DNA of 64,000 bases from Candidatus Merdivicinus intestinigallinarum (GTDB taxonomy: Bacteria > Bacillota > Clostridia > Oscillospirales > Ruminococcaceae), in the NCBI GenBank assembly GCA_018713335.1, contig DVOW01000043.1:1-64000 (forward strand), written 5' to 3'. A program made the position numbers and the translations under genes. Below, piece after piece: positions 32,591 to 43,816 of the stretch (its first letter is position 1; each line of letters opens with the position of its first letter). A model generated the notes under the pieces. That model did not search any database, was not told the DNA's origin, and saw only the letters and a list, made by a program, of their open reading frames with translations.

Positions 32591-33325
32591 TTATTGGCAG
32601 GCTTTTTTCCAGCACACCCCCGCCGCCAGAATATCCAGGGGAATCCCGGCCAGGAAAGCCAAAAACGCCCACAGAAAATGGCTCCCCAAATCGCCCCAGT
32701 AGGCCGTCTGGGGCAAAGTGGAAAGGGCCGCCAGCTGTTCTTTGTAAAAGGGGAAATCCAGGATAAAGTCCGGCGGCAGCAAATCCCCCGGCAGGAAAAA
32801 CTGGAATGAAAGCAGCCACCGCAGCAGAAAAAGCCCCGCCACCAGCATGACGCACCAGCCAATGGCCCCCATGAGCAGCCCCACCATGTGCTTTTCCACC
32901 CACTGGCCGAAATAACATTCTCCCTGTTCCGAACGGTAAAGGACCGCCGCCTTTTTGACGCTGTACACCATGATGCACCCAAAGGCCAGGAGCACCAGGC
33001 ATCCCCACAGCCAAAGGGTGAGCTTTGGAAACTGTTCCAGCACTTTGTTCCCGGACACATACCGGACGGCCGCCTCCGGCCCCAATGCTTCCGCCAATTT
33101 CTGCCGGAAAAACGGCTTGCCGTTGTCAAACACCGCACCGCAGCCTTCCTCCGGGGAAAACTCCGTCCGGTACTGGCCGGAAAGCAGCTCCATCTGCTCC
33201 GCCGTCACGCCGAACACCTCCGCCCGGTCGGGATTCCCGGCAAAATCCCGGACAGCCCACACCTGAACTCCCAGCAAAAGGAGCATCAAAATTCCCAAAA
33301 CGCCCAGTGTAATTTTCTTTCTCAT
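32591..33325 (-). CDS. uncharacterised multi-TM membrane protein, last gene of the sigma/SBP/permease operon
   Basis: hydrophobic segments LGVLGILMLLLLGVQVWAV, LWLWGCLVLLAFGCIMVY, LMGAIGWCVMLVAGLFLLRWLL, FLWAFLAFLAGIPLDILAAGV; overlaps upstream gene by 4 nt. Confidence 0.65.
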   Translation of the reverse strand: MRKKITLGVLGILMLLLLGVQVWAVRDFAGNPDRAEVFGVTAEQMELLSGQYRTEFSPEEGCGAVFDNGKPFFRQKLAEALGPEAAVRYVSGNKVLEQFPKLTLWLWGCLVLLAFGCIMVYSVKKAAVLYRSEQGECYFGQWVEKHMVGLLMGAIGWCVMLVAGLFLLRWLLSFQFFLPGDLLPPDFILDFPFYKEQLAALSTLPQTAYWGDLGSHFLWAFLAFLAGIPLDILAAGVCWKKACQ

Positions 33326-33708
33326 GACGTGATTTCCTCCGTAATCCGGACTTTCATGCCGTCCTGCAAGGGCTTCGTGCTGTACCGGACAATGGGGATT
33401 CCCGGCGGCAGGCCCCCGGAAACAGCCGCCAGCCCGTCCTTTTCCGCGGCAATCCGGACGGTGGCCTGGTAGGCCCGGCCGTCCTGCACATAATAAACGG
33501 CGTATTCATCCGCGCTTTTCGGGGTCAGGCAGGCTGTTGGCACCACGGTGTCGTACTTTTCTCCGTCCGGTTCCAGGGCGGTTTCTTCGGCGTAGATCAC
33601 CGCTGTTTCCGGACACATCAGATAGTCCACCTTCTGGCAGAGTAATGCGCAGAAGGACAGGGCCGCCAGAAACCCGGCGATCCTCCGCAGCATTTTTCTG
33701 TCTTTCAT
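33322..33708 (-). CDS. small membrane-anchored protein with membrane-fusion-protein-like C-terminus
   Basis: MKDRKMLRRIAGFLAALSFCALL TM; EYAVYYVQDGRAYQATVRIAAEKDGLAAVSGGLPPGIPIVRYSTKPLQDGMKVRI resembles an MFP C-terminal domain. Confidence 0.55.
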   Translation of the reverse strand: MKDRKMLRRIAGFLAALSFCALLCQKVDYLMCPETAVIYAEETALEPDGEKYDTVVPTACLTPKSADEYAVYYVQDGRAYQATVRIAAEKDGLAAVSGGLPPGIPIVRYSTKPLQDGMKVRITEEITS

Positions 33709-33718
33709 GCCATCCCCC

Positions 33719-34492
33719 CTATTTGACGCAGCCCAGAGAAATGCCTTCCACCAGGTCGTCGTAGCAGAACCGGTAGAGCAAAATGGGCAGCACGCTGAAC
33801 AGAATCCCGCAGGCCGGGGCCGCCCCCTCAAACAGGGCTGAGGACCGGTTCAAGAGCACCGACAGCGGGAACTGGCTCAGTTCGTCCAGAAATACCACCG
33901 GCTGTTCCACCATAGACCAGTTGCTGAAAAACACCAGCACTACCGCCGCCGTAACAGCCGGACGGCACAAGGGGGCCGCTAACCTCCAAAAGAGGGCAAA
34001 TTCCCCTAACCCGTCAATGCGCCCAGCGTCCAGCAGTTCCCGGCTGATGCCCTTCATGTACTGGGCCAGGAGGAAGGCCGTGAAGGTGGAAAAGGCGCAG
34101 GGCAGGATCACCGCCCAGCGGCTCCCCAGCAGCCCCGTTTTCTGCAAAACGATGTACTGGGGCACCACCACCGCCTGGAACGGCAGAAGCATCAGCACCA
34201 CATAGAGCCAGTAAAGGGCGTTCCGGCCGGGGAACCGGTACTGGCTGAAGCCGTAACCGGCAAGCAAACTCACCGGGATGTTGATGAGAAGAATCAGGGC
34301 CGTGTTCAAAAGGGAGTTCCAAAACCCGGTGTAAAATTCCATGTTTTGGAGCAAGGCCCGCCCGTACTGCTCCAATGTCACCGGCAAGGGGCCGGGATAC
34401 CGCAGCGACCCAGCGATGACCCCGGCAAAGGGCAGCAGGCAGACCAGGGCGGAAATTGTTGCCAGCCACCATCCGGCTTTTTTTACCCGCAT
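33719..34492 (-). CDS. carbohydrate ABC transporter permease (MalG-like)
   Basis: LLMLLPFQAVVVPQYIVLQKTGLLGSRWAVILPCAFSTFTAFLLAQYMKGISRELLDAGRIDGLGEFALFWRLAAPLCRPA (EAA loop). Confidence 0.9.
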   Translation of the reverse strand: MRVKKAGWWLATISALVCLLPFAGVIAGSLRYPGPLPVTLEQYGRALLQNMEFYTGFWNSLLNTALILLINIPVSLLAGYGFSQYRFPGRNALYWLYVVLMLLPFQAVVVPQYIVLQKTGLLGSRWAVILPCAFSTFTAFLLAQYMKGISRELLDAGRIDGLGEFALFWRLAAPLCRPAVTAAVVLVFFSNWSMVEQPVVFLDELSQFPLSVLLNRSSALFEGAAPACGILFSVLPILLYRFCYDDLVEGISLGCVK

Positions 34493-35341
34493 TTACATCC
34501 CCTCCTCCGCCGAGATTTTTTCCTGCCGCCACAAAAACACCGCCAGCACCGCCGAAATCCCCAGCACCAAGAGCAAGGCCGCCGTGCTCAGCCGCTGGTA
34601 ATTGAGCTTATAGAAATTGTTGTTCATGAAGTGCTGGAGCATATAGGCTTCCTGGGGCGGGCGGTCGCCGTAAAGGCCGTAAGCCTCTCTAAAAATCTGG
34701 AAGCTGTACATCAAAGACAGCACGCAGACAAAGAGGACCATGCCCCGGACGGAAGGCAGGATAATGTGCCAGACATACCGGGTTTTGGAGCCGGAATCCA
34801 GGGCAAAGGCTTCGCCGTACTCTTTGGGCAGGGAGGAAACCGCCCCGGCGAAGATCACCGCCATATACCCCACGTTTTTCACCAGGAAAAAGAAGGCCAG
34901 GGTTTCCCGGGCAAAGCCGCCGGTGAAAAAGTCAACGGTTGTCCCGCCGCAAAGCTGAATGAGCCGGTTCAGCGGCCCGTTTTCCCCAAAAACCGCCTGC
35001 CAGCCCAGCAAAGCGGCGGCTGTGGGCAGGGCCATGGGGATCAAAATGGCCCACCGCTGAAAGGAAAACCGGGAACCCGCCAGGGCAATCCCCAGAAGAA
35101 GGCCCAGAATCACCAAAAGGGGTACGCCCTCTAAGATAAAGAGCAGGGTATTTTTCACCGCCAGCCGGTAAGCGTCGTTTGCAAAAAGCTCCCGGAAATT
35201 GGCAAGGCCCGCGAACTCCGCCTTGCCCGTCCCTTTGGTAAAAGCGTAGCCGATGCTGGCGAAAAAGGGGACAATGACGAAGGCCGCCGTCCCTATGAGG
35301 CTGGGCAGGATAAACCACAGCCCCGTCCATTTTTTCCGCAT
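34493..35341 (-). CDS. sugar ABC transporter permease (MalF-like)
   Basis: FILPSLIGTAAFVIVPFFASIGYAFT...KEYGEAFALDSGSKTRYVWHIILPSVRG (EAA loop). Confidence 0.9.
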   Translation of the reverse strand: MRKKWTGLWFILPSLIGTAAFVIVPFFASIGYAFTKGTGKAEFAGLANFRELFANDAYRLAVKNTLLFILEGVPLLVILGLLLGIALAGSRFSFQRWAILIPMALPTAAALLGWQAVFGENGPLNRLIQLCGGTTVDFFTGGFARETLAFFFLVKNVGYMAVIFAGAVSSLPKEYGEAFALDSGSKTRYVWHIILPSVRGMVLFVCVLSLMYSFQIFREAYGLYGDRPPQEAYMLQHFMNNNFYKLNYQRLSTAALLLVLGISAVLAVFLWRQEKISAEEGM

Positions 35342-35352
35342 AACCTTCTCCC

Positions 35353-37596
35353 CTATTCGTTTAAGTAGAGCCAGATTTCTTCCTCGGCCGCCGCCAGCAT
35401 TTGGTCCAGGGTTTCCTCATCGTCCAGATACTTCTGGAAATGGGCGGCAAAAAGGTTGGTGATTTCACTTTGCAGTTTCAAAGTATCAGCACCTTTGACA
35501 ATGGCTTCAAAATCTTCCATATTGGAGGGCGCATTATGGTAACTCATCCGTTCTAAAAAGTCCTTTTCCCAGCCTTCCTGGGTAACGGGAATTCCCCGGC
35601 GGTGCAGCGATTGAATTTCCTCGCTGTACAGGTACTCCAAAAACTTCCAGGCGGCGTCCGGGTTGTCGGAGGAAGCCGCAATTCCAAAGATGTCCTTACA
35701 TTCAAACTGCTGTCCCCCGGGCATGGGCAGGTAACAATAACCTTCCGGATAATAAGTTATTTGACGGCCAAAGTCATCCCCTATATAACCCTCACCAATA
35801 CCATATGGGCTGAACATACTGCCCATCAGCGGGTCAATAGGCGAAACATCCTGGATTTTTGCCAGCATGGGATCATCCTCAATGGCCTTGAAGGACTCCA
35901 ATGTTTCCCGGAACCAATCCCGGTTGAGAGAAACGGTTTTCTGCTCTACATCAATGAGCCGGGGCATACAGCTGTCGATCATCGCCCAGGCCACCAGATT
36001 TTTAGAACTGTTAAACAAAGGCGTTTCCGGCGAAGATTCTTTCAGCCTGGGCAGGAGATTGAAAACATCCGCCCAGCTGTCTAAGCCGTCCAAATTCACA
36101 CCCAGCTTCTCCGCCAAGGCCCCGTCCGCCACCAAGCAGGGAACCTGGTAGGTTACCGGCAGGCCCCGGGTGGCTCCGTTCATTTCTACGGCTTCCAGGA
36201 TACTGGGATTCAGGGTGGTGGAGATGCCGGATTCTTCCAGATACGGGGTCAGATCCAGCAGAGCATCGGATTGGAGGAAATTCTGCACCGGCAGGCCCTC
36301 CCCGGACAGGCTCACCACATCCCCCACATCCCCGGCCATGAGCCGGGCGGAAATTTTGTCCCGGTAGAGGTCGTAGGACTGCCAGTAAGCGTCTTCGGAA
36401 AGGTAGGCCGCGTCAATTTCCACATGTTCCTCCGGATATTTCTTTTGGAACCGGATGACAGCTTCCTTCAGAAAATCGTTGGCGTAAGGGACGGTAATGG
36501 AAAAAGTAGGTTCCTTTTCCTCCTTTTTGCCCCCCTCCTCAAAGGTAAAGGGGATAATCTGCTGGTAAGAACGGAAGTTCTCCCCTTCCCCTTCATACCC
36601 GGAGAAGTTGAAATATAAGGAACGGTCCTCCCCCATTGCGAAATCGGTCAAACTGTACAGCGGCTCTGAGGTAAAGGAGGTGTCCTGAATCAAAGTGAGG
36701 ATATACCGCAGATTATTTTCATTTCTGGAATCATTTGGACCTACAATGCCAGGATAATAGACGCCGACACCTTTCTCCGTGACCAGATAAATACGCCCGT
36801 CATACCGGTTGTATTCGATTTGATAAGGCATGTCGAACACTGGTTCCATCGAAACTTCTTTTTGGGCATTTACGTCATATTTGACATACGCATACTTAGA
36901 ACGCCGATTCAATCCGCCGGTCAAACTGTAAAAGTTGCCCTGGCCGTCAATGGCAGCATCCTGGGTGTCCGCATACTCCACAATCAAATTCCCGTCCCAG
37001 TCATAGACCTGCAAATAAGAGTCATTTGCTCCCTGTATTTCCCCCAGAACATACAAATAGGAATCGTCCGCCAAAATTTTGCGGATATGCAAATATTGCT
37101 CTTCGCCGGGTTTGTGCAATTCTTTAAGCTCTGCTGTCCGGTCAATTTCTCCGGCTTGGTCATATCGGTTCACAGTGACGAAATAAGTGCTTTTATCCAA
37201 AAAAGCCTCCAGGATATTCCCATGGAAATCCATGCCTATATAATTAGAAGGAGGCGTTTCGGGAGTTTCCGCGACCGCTGTCCCATCCTGCTTGACAAAA
37301 GACAAACCGTCCTCCGAATCCCTGTACCACACAATTTCCCCCTGAAAATTGAAGAAGGTATCCCCGAAGTAACCGCCCTTCTGTGTTTCTTTTTCATGGT
37401 AAAGGCCTTTTGGAACAGGGGCCTTTTGCTCTGTGGCTGTTTGGGAGGCTTCCGTTACGCTGTTTTCTGCGGACAGGGAAGATTCCGGCTTCGGGGAATC
37501 CTGCCCGGTCAGAAGGAAAGCGGCGGTCCCGCCTGCGGCCACCAAGACCAATGCCGCGGCCAGGATAGCGGCCTGCTGCTTTTTGCTGAGCTTCAT
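35353..37596 (-). CDS. TM-anchored, propeller-like plus ABC extracellular solute-binding protein
   Basis: MKLSKKQQAAILAAALVLVAAGGTAAFLLTG TM anchor, no lipobox Cys; C-term SBP region (SITVPYANDFLKEAVIRFQKKYPEEHVEI...GLPVTYQVPCLVADGALAEKLG...NPDAAWKFLEYLYSEEIQSLH). Longer GTG start at 37647 possible. Confidence 0.82.
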   Translation of the reverse strand: MKLSKKQQAAILAAALVLVAAGGTAAFLLTGQDSPKPESSLSAENSVTEASQTATEQKAPVPKGLYHEKETQKGGYFGDTFFNFQGEIVWYRDSEDGLSFVKQDGTAVAETPETPPSNYIGMDFHGNILEAFLDKSTYFVTVNRYDQAGEIDRTAELKELHKPGEEQYLHIRKILADDSYLYVLGEIQGANDSYLQVYDWDGNLIVEYADTQDAAIDGQGNFYSLTGGLNRRSKYAYVKYDVNAQKEVSMEPVFDMPYQIEYNRYDGRIYLVTEKGVGVYYPGIVGPNDSRNENNLRYILTLIQDTSFTSEPLYSLTDFAMGEDRSLYFNFSGYEGEGENFRSYQQIIPFTFEEGGKKEEKEPTFSITVPYANDFLKEAVIRFQKKYPEEHVEIDAAYLSEDAYWQSYDLYRDKISARLMAGDVGDVVSLSGEGLPVQNFLQSDALLDLTPYLEESGISTTLNPSILEAVEMNGATRGLPVTYQVPCLVADGALAEKLGVNLDGLDSWADVFNLLPRLKESSPETPLFNSSKNLVAWAMIDSCMPRLIDVEQKTVSLNRDWFRETLESFKAIEDDPMLAKIQDVSPIDPLMGSMFSPYGIGEGYIGDDFGRQITYYPEGYCYLPMPGGQQFECKDIFGIAASSDNPDAAWKFLEYLYSEEIQSLHRRGIPVTQEGWEKDFLERMSYHNAPSNMEDFEAIVKGADTLKLQSEITNLFAAHFQKYLDDEETLDQMLAAAEEEIWLYLNE

Positions 37597-37643: not shown

Positions 37644-39968
37644 TCACTCCTCACCCGGTTTTAAAGCGGCGGCCAGGGCCTTCTCCGCGCTTTGGAGGGT
37701 TTCCTCCAAAGCCCAGCTGCCGTACAGGTACATGCGCAGCCGCAGGCCGAAAAGGTCCTCCATTTCCGAAGGCAGGGGGAGGGCCTCCCCACTCCGGCAG
37801 ACGGATTTCATATCCCGCAGCCGCTGTTTTTCCTCAGGGCCGGCATTGCCGGCGTATTCCTTCCAGAAGGCTTCCTCCGCGGCCAGGTTCATAGGGATAT
37901 GACGGAAAGTAAAGAGGGTCTGCCCTTCTTCACTGCAAAGGTATTCCAAAAATTCCCAGGCGGCATCCGGGTTTTGGGCGTCTTTGGGAATGGCGAAGGT
38001 TTCCCGGGGGGTAATCAGCCCGGCCACAGGCATAGGCAGCAGCCGGTAATCCGGGAAAACGGAAGCCATGCTGAAATCATCACTTAAAAATCCTTCGCCC
38101 AGGTCATACAGGGCAAACATACCGCCTGAAAGCGGGTCAAAAGAGGAGATTTCCCGTTCCTTTCCAAACTGCGGGTCGTTATAGGTTCCCCGCCAGGCCG
38201 CCAAGTCCCGCCGGAACCATTCCTGATCCAAAGATATGGTCTGCCGTTCTTCATCCGCCAATAGGGTCAGACCGCTTTGGAGCATGGCCCGGGTGATCTC
38301 CTCCTTTTCGCCGGAAAAGAGGGGCGTTTCCGGGGATTTTTCCTTTATTTCCGGAAGCAGGGCAAAAATATCCGCCCAGCTGTCTAAGCTGTCCAAATCC
38401 ACCCCTAATTTTTCCGCCATGGATCCATCGGCAATCAGGCAGGAAACTTCATAATTCACCGGCAGGCAGTTGAGCTGGCTGTCCTTGGCCATTTCTTCTA
38501 AAACAACAGGGTTCAGCTTGTCAGAAAGGCCGGATTTCTCCAGATATTCGGTCAAATCCATCAAATCAGGATGTTCCAGCATGTCCCGTGCCGGTAAAGT
38601 GTTCCCATCAAAAAGAATCAAATCTCCGGCCGTCCCGGCAGACAGGCGGCGCAGAAGCTCTTCCCGGTATTCGGAAGCGGATTCCGCATATTCATCCCAG
38701 GATGCGTAAACCGGGTCCACCAAAATCGTCCAGCCCGGATTCTCCCGTTCAAAGCGCATCACAGCGTCGTCCAGGTAATCGCTGGCGTAGGGCGCTGTAA
38801 CGGAAAAGTCCACCTGGATTTCCGGCGGCGGCGCGTCCTGGTCATGGACAAAGGATGAAAACTCCTGATAGGCGTACTCTTCGCCGTTTTCGTAGTTCCG
38901 GGTGAAACTATACACCAGCGTCCGGTCCTCCCCCACGGCAAAATCATAATAAAAAGACATATCTTCCGGGTAGAAGGAGGTGTCCTGCCCCACCGTCAGG
39001 ATGGTTTTCTCCTTTTGGCCGTTTTCCGGCCGGAGGACCGACACTTCCTTATTGGAGGACAGGTATAACAGGCCGTCCTCCCGGCTGTAATCGATCTGGC
39101 AGAAGGTTTCATTAAAAGGGACCATCCAGCTTTGCTCCCGGGTTTTGGCATTGACTTTCAGCAGAGAATAGTGCGTTTGGTGCTGAAGGCCGCCGGTGAC
39201 GGTGTAAACATTCCCTTCCCCGTCAATGGCCGCGTCCTCGGTTTCGGCGTATTCCGCACACAAATTCCCATTCCAGTCGTAAACCTGCAAATAGGCGGGG
39301 GGCCCTCCCGTCACACGGGCGATCAGGTAGAGATACTCCTCGTCGGCCATGAACTTTTGAATTTTCAGATACGGACTTCTGTGAAGCCCCTCCAGCCTGA
39401 CTGTGCGTTCCGGTTCCCCGTTTCCCTGGTAACGGACGACCGTTACCGCGCTGGTTTCCGGGTCCAGATCCGCCGTCAGCACATTTCCGTCAAAATCCAG
39501 GGCCGCTAAGCCGGAAATGCCGGCGGGGATCTCCTTCCGGACCTCCCCGGTGTAATCCACAAAGGCCGCGCTGTCCCCCTGTTTCTGTTCCCAAACGATC
39601 GCGCCTTCATAATAATAAAGCATATGGGAGGCGTTCCGGTCCGAAAAGGAAGGCAGTTCCGTATATTGGTGGTCCAGGCGGGCAAACAAGGCAAGCAGGC
39701 TTTCCTGCAAAGCGTCCGCCCCCACCGTCATGGAGGCTCCGGCCAGGCAGAAGCACAAAATTACAGCCGCCGCCCTTCTGCCGGCCGTATTCAAAAGCCG
39801 GTCGTACCGCAGCTTCCGGCGCAGGAAAAGGCCCTTCATCTTCTTTTGGAACCGCCGGGAGGGCGCCGGTTCCGGCATTTTTGCAAGCTGTTCCTCCGTA
39901 AGTTCCAGCTCCGTCATGCAGATTTCCGCCAGCGATCGTTCCAGGTCTTTTTCAGAAAATTCAGTCAA
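37644..39968 (-). CDS. anti-sigma-like cytoplasmic domain, TM, propeller-like region and ABC solute-binding domain (fusion)
   Basis: N-term MTEFSEKDLERSLAEICMTELELTEEQLAKMPEPAPSRRFQKKMKGLFLRRKLRYDRLLNTAGRRAAAVILCFCLAGASMTVGADALQESLLALFARLDHQYTEL resembles clostridial anti-sigma proteins of the DUF4367 type; C-term SBP (FSVTAPYASDYLDDAVMRFERENPGWTILV...NPDAAWEFLEYLCSEEGQTLF). TTG start overlaps the sigma stop by 8 nt. Confidence 0.8.
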   Translation of the reverse strand: MTEFSEKDLERSLAEICMTELELTEEQLAKMPEPAPSRRFQKKMKGLFLRRKLRYDRLLNTAGRRAAAVILCFCLAGASMTVGADALQESLLALFARLDHQYTELPSFSDRNASHMLYYYEGAIVWEQKQGDSAAFVDYTGEVRKEIPAGISGLAALDFDGNVLTADLDPETSAVTVVRYQGNGEPERTVRLEGLHRSPYLKIQKFMADEEYLYLIARVTGGPPAYLQVYDWNGNLCAEYAETEDAAIDGEGNVYTVTGGLQHQTHYSLLKVNAKTREQSWMVPFNETFCQIDYSREDGLLYLSSNKEVSVLRPENGQKEKTILTVGQDTSFYPEDMSFYYDFAVGEDRTLVYSFTRNYENGEEYAYQEFSSFVHDQDAPPPEIQVDFSVTAPYASDYLDDAVMRFERENPGWTILVDPVYASWDEYAESASEYREELLRRLSAGTAGDLILFDGNTLPARDMLEHPDLMDLTEYLEKSGLSDKLNPVVLEEMAKDSQLNCLPVNYEVSCLIADGSMAEKLGVDLDSLDSWADIFALLPEIKEKSPETPLFSGEKEEITRAMLQSGLTLLADEERQTISLDQEWFRRDLAAWRGTYNDPQFGKEREISSFDPLSGGMFALYDLGEGFLSDDFSMASVFPDYRLLPMPVAGLITPRETFAIPKDAQNPDAAWEFLEYLCSEEGQTLFTFRHIPMNLAAEEAFWKEYAGNAGPEEKQRLRDMKSVCRSGEALPLPSEMEDLFGLRLRMYLYGSWALEETLQSAEKALAAALKPGEE

Positions 39969-40509
39969 TTTGTTCCTCCCCTTTCATACGCTGCTGCAAT
40001 TTGTTGGTAATGGCGTGAAGCCGGTTGTAAACGGTCTTGGTGGAAATGTGGTACAAAGTCCCGATGTCCTGGGCCTTGATCTTGGAAAAATAGAACAGCT
40101 CAAGCATTTCCCGTTCTTCCGCCGGAAGCTCCAGGATACACCGTTTCAAGCGGCTCATGCAGTCCTTCTGTTCCAGGCGGGCGGCAATGTCCTCCGGTCC
40201 CGGCAGATTCTCCGGCATATCCTGCACTACCTTTTGCTCCCTTTGCCGGGAACGGCAAAGGTCCAATGCCGCATGGCGGACGCTTTTGCAGACCAGGGCT
40301 TTGGTCCGGGGGGACTCCGGCGGGCCGATATTGGGCAGGATCTTCAGGATATATAAAAAGGTTTCTTGCACCGCGTCCTCCGCCCGGGCCTGGTCGTTCA
40401 GGATGCGGCTGGCGATTTTCAGCATGGGCGGGCGGTAAAGCTCATAAATTGCGGTAAACTTGTCCTGTTCCCTTTCATCTGCAATGAGGGTCGTATAAAA
40501 AGCTAGCAT
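39961..40509 (-). CDS. ECF-type RNA polymerase sigma factor
   Basis: region 2 (FTAIYELYRPPMLKIASRILNDQARAEDAVQETFLYILKIL) and region 4 (LKRCILELPAEEREMLELFYFSKIKAQDIGTLYHISTKTVYNRLHAITNKL). Confidence 0.92.
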   Translation of the reverse strand: MLAFYTTLIADEREQDKFTAIYELYRPPMLKIASRILNDQARAEDAVQETFLYILKILPNIGPPESPRTKALVCKSVRHAALDLCRSRQREQKVVQDMPENLPGPEDIAARLEQKDCMSRLKRCILELPAEEREMLELFYFSKIKAQDIGTLYHISTKTVYNRLHAITNKLQQRMKGEEQID

Positions 40510-40536: not shown

Positions 40537-40551
40537 CGTCCCGCTGGGACG
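40537..40551 (-). promoter_or_regulatory. hairpin in sigma-factor 5' UTR
   Basis: CGTCCC-gct-GGGACG perfect inverted repeat just upstream of the RBS. Confidence 0.35.
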
Positions 40552-40568
40552 GGAGGTACAAAGCTCTG

Positions 40569-40703: not shown

Positions 40704-40733
40704 AAAAATCCCAGTTTTCGCAACTGGGATTTT
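40704..40733 (-). terminator. terminator after the second GH29 gene
   Basis: AATCCCAGT-tttcgca-ACTGGGATT with A/T flanks. Confidence 0.8.
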
Positions 40734-40761: not shown

Positions 40762-41880
40762 TTATTCGGCTCCTGCGCCTGTAATGTTCTGGGAGGACGC
40801 CCCAGCGGCAGGGAACCCTTCCCGCCGGATCTTCTCCCCCAGCTCCAGCAGGATTTTCACATGGCTGGGATGGATCGAGCCGTCGGCCATGGGGCCGGTG
40901 TTCAGCAGAAGGTTGCAGTTGTTGGCGGCGGCGTGGCCCAGCAGCGCATAAAGCTCCTCCACGCTGCGGTTTTCAAAGCGGGGGTTATAGCCCCAACAGC
41001 CCCGCTGGATGGTGGAGCAGATTTCGTTGTGCTTATGCCGGTTCCCCTCGAAGCCTTTCCGGGCGCGCTGTGCGCCCGCTTCCCCAAACCGGGGGCGGAT
41101 ACTGTCGGCCAAATCATGGAAACTGTTTTCCGGGGAGGCAAAGTCCTCCGTGCCAGTGGCCCCCTGCTTCCAGGAAATCAGGACATCCGGGTGTTTTTTA
41201 CGCAGATTGGCGTAGATTCGCTCGATGGGGATATATTCCTCCCCCATGGCGTACCAGGCGGCGATCAAATCCAGCCAGATACCGGTGATCTTATAATTGG
41301 ACAGAAGTTCGTCCATGACCTGTTCGATATAGTCGATGTAGTGCTGGAAATCCTCTTTTTTCCGGTACAAATAGCGGGGCTCCGGCTGTTCATAGGCGGG
41401 ACGCGCGCTGTCGAATACCGTGTTGTCCACATAATAGGGATGATGCCAGTTGAGCATGAAGGTGTAATAGGCGAAAAATCCCAGGCCCTTCCGGTCGCAG
41501 GCCTCGCTGAGCTCCTTGACCAGGTCCCGGCCCGCCGCGTTCATGCTGTTGAAGGGCTCGATTTTGGAATCCCACAGGCAGAATCCCTCATGATGGCAGG
41601 TGGTCAGGTTGATATATTTCATCCCCGCCTTCAGGGCCAGGTCCGTGATATAGTCCGCGTCAAAATTGTGGGCCGTAAACTGTTCCGTCAGCTTTTCATA
41701 TTCCGCCACCGGGATTTTGTCAAAAAACTGGATCCACTCCCGGTCGTGCATCAGGGAATATAAGCCATAATGCAGGAAGAGGCCGTATTTCGCGTCCTGA
41801 AACCACTTCAGTTTCGCCTGTTTCGGGTCCTTGACCCATATCTCCTCGTAATCTTTTAAGTATTTCGGGCATTCTCCCAT
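40762..41880 (-). CDS. alpha-L-fucosidase-like GH29 protein
   Basis: KWFQDAKYGLFLHYGLYSLMHDREWIQF...AGMKYINLTTCHHEGFCLWDSK. Confidence 0.88.
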   Translation of the reverse strand: MGECPKYLKDYEEIWVKDPKQAKLKWFQDAKYGLFLHYGLYSLMHDREWIQFFDKIPVAEYEKLTEQFTAHNFDADYITDLALKAGMKYINLTTCHHEGFCLWDSKIEPFNSMNAAGRDLVKELSEACDRKGLGFFAYYTFMLNWHHPYYVDNTVFDSARPAYEQPEPRYLYRKKEDFQHYIDYIEQVMDELLSNYKITGIWLDLIAAWYAMGEEYIPIERIYANLRKKHPDVLISWKQGATGTEDFASPENSFHDLADSIRPRFGEAGAQRARKGFEGNRHKHNEICSTIQRGCWGYNPRFENRSVEELYALLGHAAANNCNLLLNTGPMADGSIHPSHVKILLELGEKIRREGFPAAGASSQNITGAGAE

Positions 41881-41989
41881 GACAATTCCTCCTTACGGCG
41901 CGCCGCGCCGCTGCTATCACGGTTTCTAATTGTACAGAAAACGCCCTAAAATGTCAAGGGATTCCCCGCAAAATGCCTGCCCCGCGCAG

Positions 41990-43588
41990 TCACTTTACCC
42001 GGATCAGCGCGTAGACCCAGTCCTGGAAAGCGTCGATCCGGGGCATCCGGAAGGAGCCGTCCGCTTCCGCATGGACAATGCCCAGATCTGTCACCCGGCC
42101 AGTGATGGGGTCCATCCGTTCCGCCCGGTATGCCGCACCAGGCTCCAGCTGCAAAATCCGGACCTCCCCCCAGAAGTCCCCGCCGAAATTGGGCTTGAAG
42201 ATCAGGCATACCTCTCCGGGAATCCCCATGGCGAAATGTCCGTCCGGGGCCTCCAAGGTGCAGGGGCGTTCTACCCATTCGGGGTGCTGCTCAAAGCGCC
42301 ACCATTCAAATTTCATCAGGTATTCCTTGCAGTACCCGATCTGCCGGGAGCCGGGGAGCTGATAGGCTTCCTGCCAGGGGGTGCTGCCCCACTGGGCCCC
42401 GTGGGGCGATACGCCGTAAGGGCAGTTTTTGTCGTTTAGCTGCCAGATCCCGTTGGCGCCGTAGGTGTGGCCGCAGGCTCCCAGGAAAACGCAGCTTAAA
42501 AACGCGTACCGCTGGACATCCGCATAGCTGGACCCGCAGATGCCCTCATAGCACACCTCCGAATCAATGACCGGCAGCCGTTTCTGGGAAACAGCCTTGC
42601 GGACCATCTGCATGGTAGGGGCCAGGCTGAAGGGACCGCTGTGGCCGGTTTGGAGCATATCCAGGTCCAGAAGGGATTCATCCTCGATCTGCTCATGGCC
42701 GTAGGAGGTGGGGTGGATGGTGACCAGCCGGCGGAACACATCCTGCTCTTTAATGAAGGCAGTCATTTCGTTCCAGTCCCTGCGGGACTGGCGCAGATGC
42801 TCCTCCATGGGGCAATTCTCGTCATAAAAGGCCATGTTGGCCTCGCCGGCCACGCACCAGACCACCGGGTAAGCCGCCCAGCGGGCGATTAGGTACTGCC
42901 AGTGCCGCTTCAATACTTCTTTCCCCGCGAATTTCATGAAAAAGCCCCAGCTGCCCACAATACAGGGGGTGATGCCGTGTTCGATCAGGCTGATGATCTT
43001 GCGGTCCGCCATGTCAAAATAAAGGGGGTTGATTTGGGTGAATTGCTCGTCCCAGGGGAACCCGCCCTCGTTTTTCCCGCGCTCATCAAAGGGCAGCATA
43101 TCAGGGTACAGCCCCGCTACGATCTGCACGACCGTAAAGCCTTTCCGCCGCCGGTCCTCCGCCAGGGTCTCAAAATCCTCCGGATAGGCCAGGCGGGTGG
43201 TCAGGCCCATCCACCAGGTGTCTGCCAGCCAGAAAAAGGGCGTGCCGTCCCGGTGCCGCAAAAACATCTCCCCGTCCCGGCGGCAGATACTGCCGCGGCG
43301 GTACAGGGGGTTCTCCCCTTGATAGGCTGTCACCTGTACGGAACCGGTCTGTCCCCGCAGTCCGGCATCCTCCTGGCTGCACAGGGTTTCAAAATGATGT
43401 TCCCCCACCTGGGGCGAGCTGTACCGGACCTTCCAGACCCCGTTTCCCGCCCAGAATCCGGGAACGGTCAGGATTTCGCCTTCCGGGCCGGTCCACCGCA
43501 CCTGAAATTCCACCTGGTCAAAGGGGCGTTCATATACCTTTTCCGCCTGAAAGCTCAGCTCCACAACCTGGTTTTGCATGACTGTCAT
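41990..43588 (-). CDS. DUF5060/DUF4038 (apiosidase-like) glycoside hydrolase
   Basis: N-term VELSFQAEKVYERPFDQVEFQVRWTGPEGEILTVPGFW (DUF5060-like), then RRDGEMFLRHRDGTPFFWLADTWWMGLTTRL (DUF4038-like). Confidence 0.82.
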   Translation of the reverse strand: MTVMQNQVVELSFQAEKVYERPFDQVEFQVRWTGPEGEILTVPGFWAGNGVWKVRYSSPQVGEHHFETLCSQEDAGLRGQTGSVQVTAYQGENPLYRRGSICRRDGEMFLRHRDGTPFFWLADTWWMGLTTRLAYPEDFETLAEDRRRKGFTVVQIVAGLYPDMLPFDERGKNEGGFPWDEQFTQINPLYFDMADRKIISLIEHGITPCIVGSWGFFMKFAGKEVLKRHWQYLIARWAAYPVVWCVAGEANMAFYDENCPMEEHLRQSRRDWNEMTAFIKEQDVFRRLVTIHPTSYGHEQIEDESLLDLDMLQTGHSGPFSLAPTMQMVRKAVSQKRLPVIDSEVCYEGICGSSYADVQRYAFLSCVFLGACGHTYGANGIWQLNDKNCPYGVSPHGAQWGSTPWQEAYQLPGSRQIGYCKEYLMKFEWWRFEQHPEWVERPCTLEAPDGHFAMGIPGEVCLIFKPNFGGDFWGEVRILQLEPGAAYRAERMDPITGRVTDLGIVHAEADGSFRMPRIDAFQDWVYALIRVK

Positions 43589-43816
43589 GGCAATTCCTCC
43601 CACAAAATCGATTTGAATACCGGGATATAGATTACTGTTTCATCGTACCATATTTATTTCCAAAAATCCAGAGGTATTCTAAATAATTTCTAGGTATTTT
43701 TTATCCATCTGAAATACCCCGCCTTTATTTTCTTAAAATCCATTCCAGACGGTATATCCAGCCAAAAAGTGCCGATACTTTGGTTGCAGGATTCTCAGAT
43801 TCAGGAGGTATCGATT

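Follow-up and report, generated by a model that had tools for sequence, protein, structure and literature searches.

A putative anti-sigma factor with an external solute-binding sensor, encoded with its own uptake operon in Candidatus Merdivicinus

The 774-aa protein encoded after an ECF sigma factor gene in Candidatus Merdivicinus intestinigallinarum, within the window (the whole stretch of 64,000 nucleotides analysed), is probably a ligand-controlled, one-pass anti-sigma factor for its own uptake operon, with an external propeller and solute-binding protein (SBP) part duplicated from the SBP of that operon. As its inner end is that of a sigma partner and its outer end is an SBP, an extracellular nutrient could switch genes on directly. 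SBPs are known sensors in histidine kinases, and the arrangement proposed here, if true, would give Gram-positive gut bacteria a direct route from nutrient to sigma factor. A testable ligand domain that stands beside its own transporter would also provide a handle on the large family of DUF4367-type sigma partners, and the sensor could be moved onto a reporter sigma factor to read oligosaccharides. The pair of an ECF sigma factor and a membrane anti-sigma factor is of a known kind; a tethered SBP sensor copied from the system's own transporter is one for which we found no description. The initial annotation had made the same claim of novelty, and it agrees with the literature searched, mostly open-access, in which no SBP-fused anti-sigma factor is described, an unremarked listing in an anti-sigma classification (PMC7406223) being possible.

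The Operon and Its Conservation

The fusion gene recurs in two congeneric genomes, that of Candidatus Merdivicinus excrementipullorum (DVJP01000031.1) and that of an uncultured Clostridia bin (CALWNQ010000022.1), referred to below as the two relatives. The features in the window are:

40705..40733, minus strand: terminator-like hairpin between an upstream fucosidase-like gene and the sigma gene (12-pair stem, T tail)
39961..40509, minus strand: ECF sigma factor, 182 aa (Sigma70_r2 and r4_2), kept upstream of the fusion in both relatives
37644..39968 (coding 37647-39968), minus strand: 774-aa fusion of sigma-partner domain, transmembrane (TM) segment, beta-propeller and solute-binding domain, TTG start
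39777..39968, minus strand: cytoplasmic anti-sigma-type domain, residues 1-64, by homology to DUF4367-type proteins adjoining ECF sigma genes
39720..39773, minus strand: TM segment, residues 66-83, from sequence, aligning with the TM of the DUF4367-type family
39711..39719, minus strand: A-D-A (V-x-A in relatives), putative signal-peptidase-I-like site, residues 84-86, from family conservation
38814..39638, minus strand: extracellular beta-propeller-like region, residues 111-385 (AlphaFold all-beta; Foldseek to YncE)
37647..38813, minus strand: extracellular solute-binding domain, residues 386-774 (SBP_bac_1/SBP_bac_8; PDB sequence matches CbpC, YesO, 4ry1; Foldseek)
35353..37596, minus strand: transporter SBP paralogue, 764 aa, propeller and SBP with an N-terminal membrane anchor (SBP_bac_1 E 2.7e-12)
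34493..35341, minus strand: ABC permease 1, UgpA/GlcT-like (BPD_transp_1)
33719..34492, minus strand: ABC permease 2, UgpE/GlcU-like (BPD_transp_1)
33322..33708, minus strand: small membrane-anchored protein with an RND-adaptor-like C-terminus (TIGR01730 E 2.3e-8), kept in the operon
32591..33325, minus strand: membrane protein, 244 aa, last gene of the conserved operon, in both relatives, no family match in Pfam

The coordinates and strand of the sigma gene and its 8-nt overlap with the fusion ORF (TTGACTGA) are as first annotated, and Pfam assigns Sigma70_r2 (E 1.5e-10) and r4_2 (E 1.4e-7) to its product. The fusion begins with a TTG codon, kept in both relatives (n=2), preceded by GGGGAGGAACAAA and with a good ribosome-binding site before it (GGGGAGGAACAAATTG). 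The next gene (764 aa), on which the initial annotation is silent, encodes a paralogue of the fusion possessing neither the anti-sigma domain nor a lipobox Cys. The annotation had also proposed that the operon includes permeases matching the sensor, and two BPD_transp_1 permeases are indeed present; however, the transporter has an SBP of its own in the operon, and the sensor SBP is therefore a dedicated duplicate, not the binding protein of the transporter.

In the two relatives, full-length homologues of the fusion (774-779 aa across the three genomes) occur on separate contigs at 71% and 46% identity, directly preceded by an overlapping ECF sigma gene whose product is 87% and 54% identical to that of the window; the respective values are 98% and 82% for permease 1 and 98% and 87% for permease 2. 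The sigma factor, fusion, SBP and permeases thus co-occur in three genomes, in a conserved block consisting of the sigma gene, the fusion, a 747-764-aa SBP paralogue, two permeases, the small RND-adaptor-like membrane protein and the 244-aa membrane protein. Because both relatives have the same operon, the 774-aa ORF is neither an assembly artefact nor a joining of ORFs, a concern that the initial annotation had raised. Neither the fusion nor the transporter SBP has a match in two further genomes of the genus, of estimated completeness 95% and 85%.

No ECF-type autoregulatory promoter was recognized ahead of the sigma gene, and footprinting across the three genomes reveals an A/T-rich conserved block without a convincing ECF promoter. 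A GC-rich hairpin (CGTCCCAGCGGGACG, window 40537-40554) is located in the sigma gene leader, and is kept in M. excrementipullorum and absent in the third genome. The glycosidase genes further upstream (40762-43603; fucosidase-like and apiosidase-like) were considered as parts of the system and rejected: they are missing from both relatives and lie beyond the terminator-like hairpin (40733-40705), and are thus neighbours, not parts.

The Inner End Is of a Sigma-Partner Type

Residues of about 1-105 of the fusion match small proteins (225-237 aa) from other genera, and DUF4367 is present in all three of these that were scanned. The nearest non-fused relative, from another genus (G1070:C288), is 42% identical over residues 1-98 of the fusion (E 5e-19), in support of the earlier assignment of the N-terminus to the DUF4367-type sigma-partner kind, its sigma factor is 46% identical to that of the window, and it carries DUF4367 where the fusion has the propeller and the SBP. 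As the similarity covers residues 1-98 and is followed by DUF4367, the join lies just past the TM, near residue 98-105, and the two proteins differ by a clean sensor swap. No SBP cassette surrounds the G1070:C288 pair within the 6.5 kb available. An extracellular DUF4367 was not found in the fusion by Pfam, SBP families being its sole matches, and a search of PDB sequences with the N-terminal profile returned no relative. Nor did a literature search return a paper in which a DUF4367-type protein is proven by experiment to be an anti-sigma factor.

The initial annotation had named a general lack of adjacent sigma genes among homologues as evidence against its reading; an ECF sigma ORF lies directly upstream, mostly overlapping, in 88 of 92 distinct ORFs encoding the N-terminal domain (loci from the family, order, class and phylum searches, three truncated fusion copies included). 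Of the remaining four, one has its sigma within the ORF itself and another is probably a spurious match. Divergence of the N-terminal domain correlates with that of the adjacent sigma factor (Mantel r 0.465, 83 pairs, 0/2000 permutations), shared descent also contributing to this correlation. Ten aligned sequences have in common S37, F40, M44, L47, R51, Y55, N60, T61 and A86. In the genome of the window, another ECF sigma gene (L078, G000:C12) adjoins an ORF of 460 aa that combines the same N-terminal domain with a part resembling DUF4367 by eye and an extra C-terminal region.

Purifying selection acts on the sigma factor (dN/dS 0.13) and on the N-terminal part of the fusion (dN/dS 0.16). These values bear on the possibility that the fusion serves mainly in transport, as a second tethered SBP, its N-terminal part being a relic devoid of sigma function. 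In line with such a role, the SBP domain is complete and akin to the transporter SBP, but the sigma factor and the N-terminal part are kept together in three genomes under the selection just described, and the invariant family positions S37, F40, M44, R51 and N60 are intact, making a relic very improbable.

The Outer Sensor Is Related to the SBP of the Operon

The one TM, propeller-like region and C-terminal full SBP of the initial annotation are all recovered. Residues 398-683 match SBP_bac_1 in Pfam (E 1.6e-15, 58.4 bits versus a curated cut-off of 26). The AlphaFold model, built on a six-row alignment, is of weak overall confidence (mean pLDDT 59.1), and residues of about 111-325 are all-beta at a pLDDT of about 70-85. 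Foldseek matches the whole model to sugar SBPs (YesO, CbpC, 4ry1) and to beta-propellers (YncE), and at the sequence level a fusion profile also picks out CbpC and YesO in the PDB. As the nearest solved SBPs bind sugars, an oligosaccharide-like ligand is the best guess.

The outer part of the fusion is about 40% (41%) identical to the downstream 764-aa transporter SBP. In the tree, the fusions of the three genomes cluster together, with the paralogues of the same genomes as their sister clade, so the duplication predates the split of these species. Related cassettes devoid of a sigma gene are found in other families of the order: one (L113) encodes an SBP and permeases at a contig end, while the other (L114) encodes an SBP lipoprotein, a permease, a permease with an adaptor-like tail, a membrane protein and, judged from its opening sequence, an ABC ATPase. 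The small RND-adaptor-like protein is joined to permease 2 in L114. Likely, an uptake operon gained an ECF/anti-sigma pair in which a copy of the SBP already present in the operon took the place of the DUF4367 sensor.

A Model for Sigma Release

The domain homologies, the synteny, the duplication, the sensor swap and the conservation are observed; how the sigma factor is bound, what class of ligand acts and in which direction, whether proteolysis follows and which genes are targeted we infer as follows. The gating of sigma activity by a bound nutrient, as the initial annotation proposed, is plausible. Without ligand, residues 1-64 would hold the ECF sigma factor at the membrane. An extracellular oligosaccharide-like ligand would close the SBP domain, and the closure would be passed via the propeller to the juxtamembrane segment, exposing the AxA site, at which signal peptidase would cut; an RseP-type protease would then cut within the membrane, and the freed sigma factor would transcribe its own operon.

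Genes for an RseP homologue and for two signal peptidases of type I are present in the genome, which makes regulated proteolysis the likeliest release step, and to it we give about an even chance. The putative site after the TM is near-invariant across the family, with Ala at -1 in 51 of 54 members and Val, Ala or Ile at -3 in all 54. An RsiV-like amphipathic switch helix after the TM is unsupported, being significant (p<0.05) in one of 42 sequences. Alternatively, a ligand-induced conformational change might pull the anti-sigma domain off the sigma factor, with no proteolysis involved, and the propeller could serve as a rigid spacer for such a movement; the near-invariant AxA/VxA site and the presence of the RseP and signal peptidase I genes argue against this alternative, which we consider rather unlikely.

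Mosaic Divergence Between Two Species

One species pair, the window genome and M. excrementipullorum, was compared part by part. While the permeases are 98% identical (dS 0.15-0.19) and two neighbouring genes have a dS of 0.27-0.30, the transporter SBP (window 35353-37596 versus L110:10349-12607) combines an SBP domain of 96% identity (dS 0.08) with a propeller of 57% identity (dS about 1.2), and the sensor combines an SBP domain of 58% identity (dS about 1.0) with a propeller of 84% identity (dS 0.43). As synonymous divergence is raised over parts of genes, this mosaic pattern, in this one pair, points to recombination with divergent alleles and not to fast protein evolution alone, and a shifted propeller tree lends it some support. 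Tentatively, this may be a nutrient-sensing route made of one protein, in which the transporter SBP was duplicated and wired directly onto an ECF sigma factor and the ligand domain is swapped between species by recombination while the transport apparatus remains fixed, so that the trigger could be retuned independently of the cargo.

The same comparison bears on what is sensed. BceAB-type transporters report their state to their kinases, and the same anti-sigma factor might report not free ligand but the state of the transporter (its occupancy, or the flux through the permeases encoded nearby), or else its contact with the paralogous SBP. In all three genomes the sensor gene accompanies those of the transporter, and the sensor, as a paralogue of the transporter SBP, could retain a permease-docking face. 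However, identity as low as 58% in the sensor SBP domain, against 98% in the permeases and 96% in the transporter SBP domain, is unexpected for a conserved docking surface, and sensing of transporter state appears improbable relative to sensing of free ligand.

Comparison with Known Systems

The DUF4367-type sigma partners of Clostridia share with the fusion the cytoplasmic domain, the TM, the AxA/VxA site and the gene order, but they carry DUF4367 (about 110 aa) in place of the propeller and SBP (about 665 aa), and the fusion gene differs in heading an ABC uptake operon. Alike in outline is the RsgI/SigI system of Clostridium thermocellum, in which RsgI proteins sense polysaccharides, being one-TM anti-sigma factors with swappable external carbohydrate sensors (PMC12203970). 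The sigma family and the N-terminal domain are different, however, no RsgI family match is found in the fusion, and the sigma factor matches ECF models best. RsgI has an autocleaving periplasmic domain, none being seen in the fusion, and an SBP sensor is not among the external modules listed. Another example is Tt-TolB/Tt-RpoE1 of Thermoanaerobacter tengcongensis, in which an ECF sigma factor likewise directly precedes a one-TM anti-sigma factor with a large C-terminal region; Tt-TolB, annotated as TolB, binds its sigma factor by a short N-terminus, but this is of about 39 aa and no SBP domain is reported (PMC3397946). The RsiV/sigma-V and RsiP/sigma-P systems respond to a ligand or drug outside the cell: signal peptidase makes the site-1 cut directly past the TM, which in RsiP is at VQS, and the site-2 protease RasP acts next (PMC6066255, PMC8844934). 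In the fusion, the conserved AxA motif behind the TM is a putative site of this kind. RsiV senses lysozyme and has DUF4179, which Pfam does not find in the fusion, nor does it find a FecR domain. As to the transporter, the operon resembles CUT1-type carbohydrate ABC importers in combining an SBP_bac_1 protein with UgpA/UgpE-like permeases, but its SBP differs in the N-terminal propeller and the non-lipoprotein anchor, and the operon lacks an ATPase gene, which L114 seems to have.

Rarity of the Fusion and Modularity of the Family

Searches with the fusion or the N-terminal domain covered 7 genomes of the genus, 298 and 397 of the family, 345 of the order, 391 of the class and 398 of the phylum. 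A search for further SBP fusions beside ECF sigma genes had been suggested at the outset, and the fusion was found in 3 of the 1,839 genomes searched, all of the genus Candidatus Merdivicinus; as the searches took in this anti-sigma family only, a fusion of an SBP to another anti-sigma family would be missed. In genome contigs, a single-sequence search with the fusion returned no match, and an alignment-based search returned the two congeners and one unrelated SBP; plasmids returned no match. Outside the fusions, the N-terminal domain is mostly found in ORFs of 197-300 aa. Inspection of the long matches (357-904 aa) revealed no further SBP fusion, and the longest (904 aa), located inside an unrelated membrane protein, looks spurious.

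Among the longer ORFs, one (L150) has repeated DUF4367, while L158 and L162, like L151 and L153, have regions with no family assignment. With DUF4367, dockerin-bearing, repeat and SBP versions in evidence, the conserved cytoplasmic end of the DUF4367 family is evidently a modular platform. In L151:1079-3520 and L153:1731-3476, anti-sigma-type N-termini are followed by repeated extracellular units of ~200 aa with no Pfam match. The dockerin-bearing version (L152:3428-5785, G996:C2) is a 786-aa protein headed by the N-terminal half of this anti-sigma-type domain and matching dockerin type I, encoded downstream of an ECF sigma gene, and is possibly a cellulosome-linked anti-sigma factor. One further ORF (357 aa, L156:412-1482, G239:C162) combines Sigma region 4 with the DUF4367-type anti-sigma domain, the N-terminal part of the sigma factor being out of frame or missing, and represents either a sigma/anti-sigma fusion or a frameshift.
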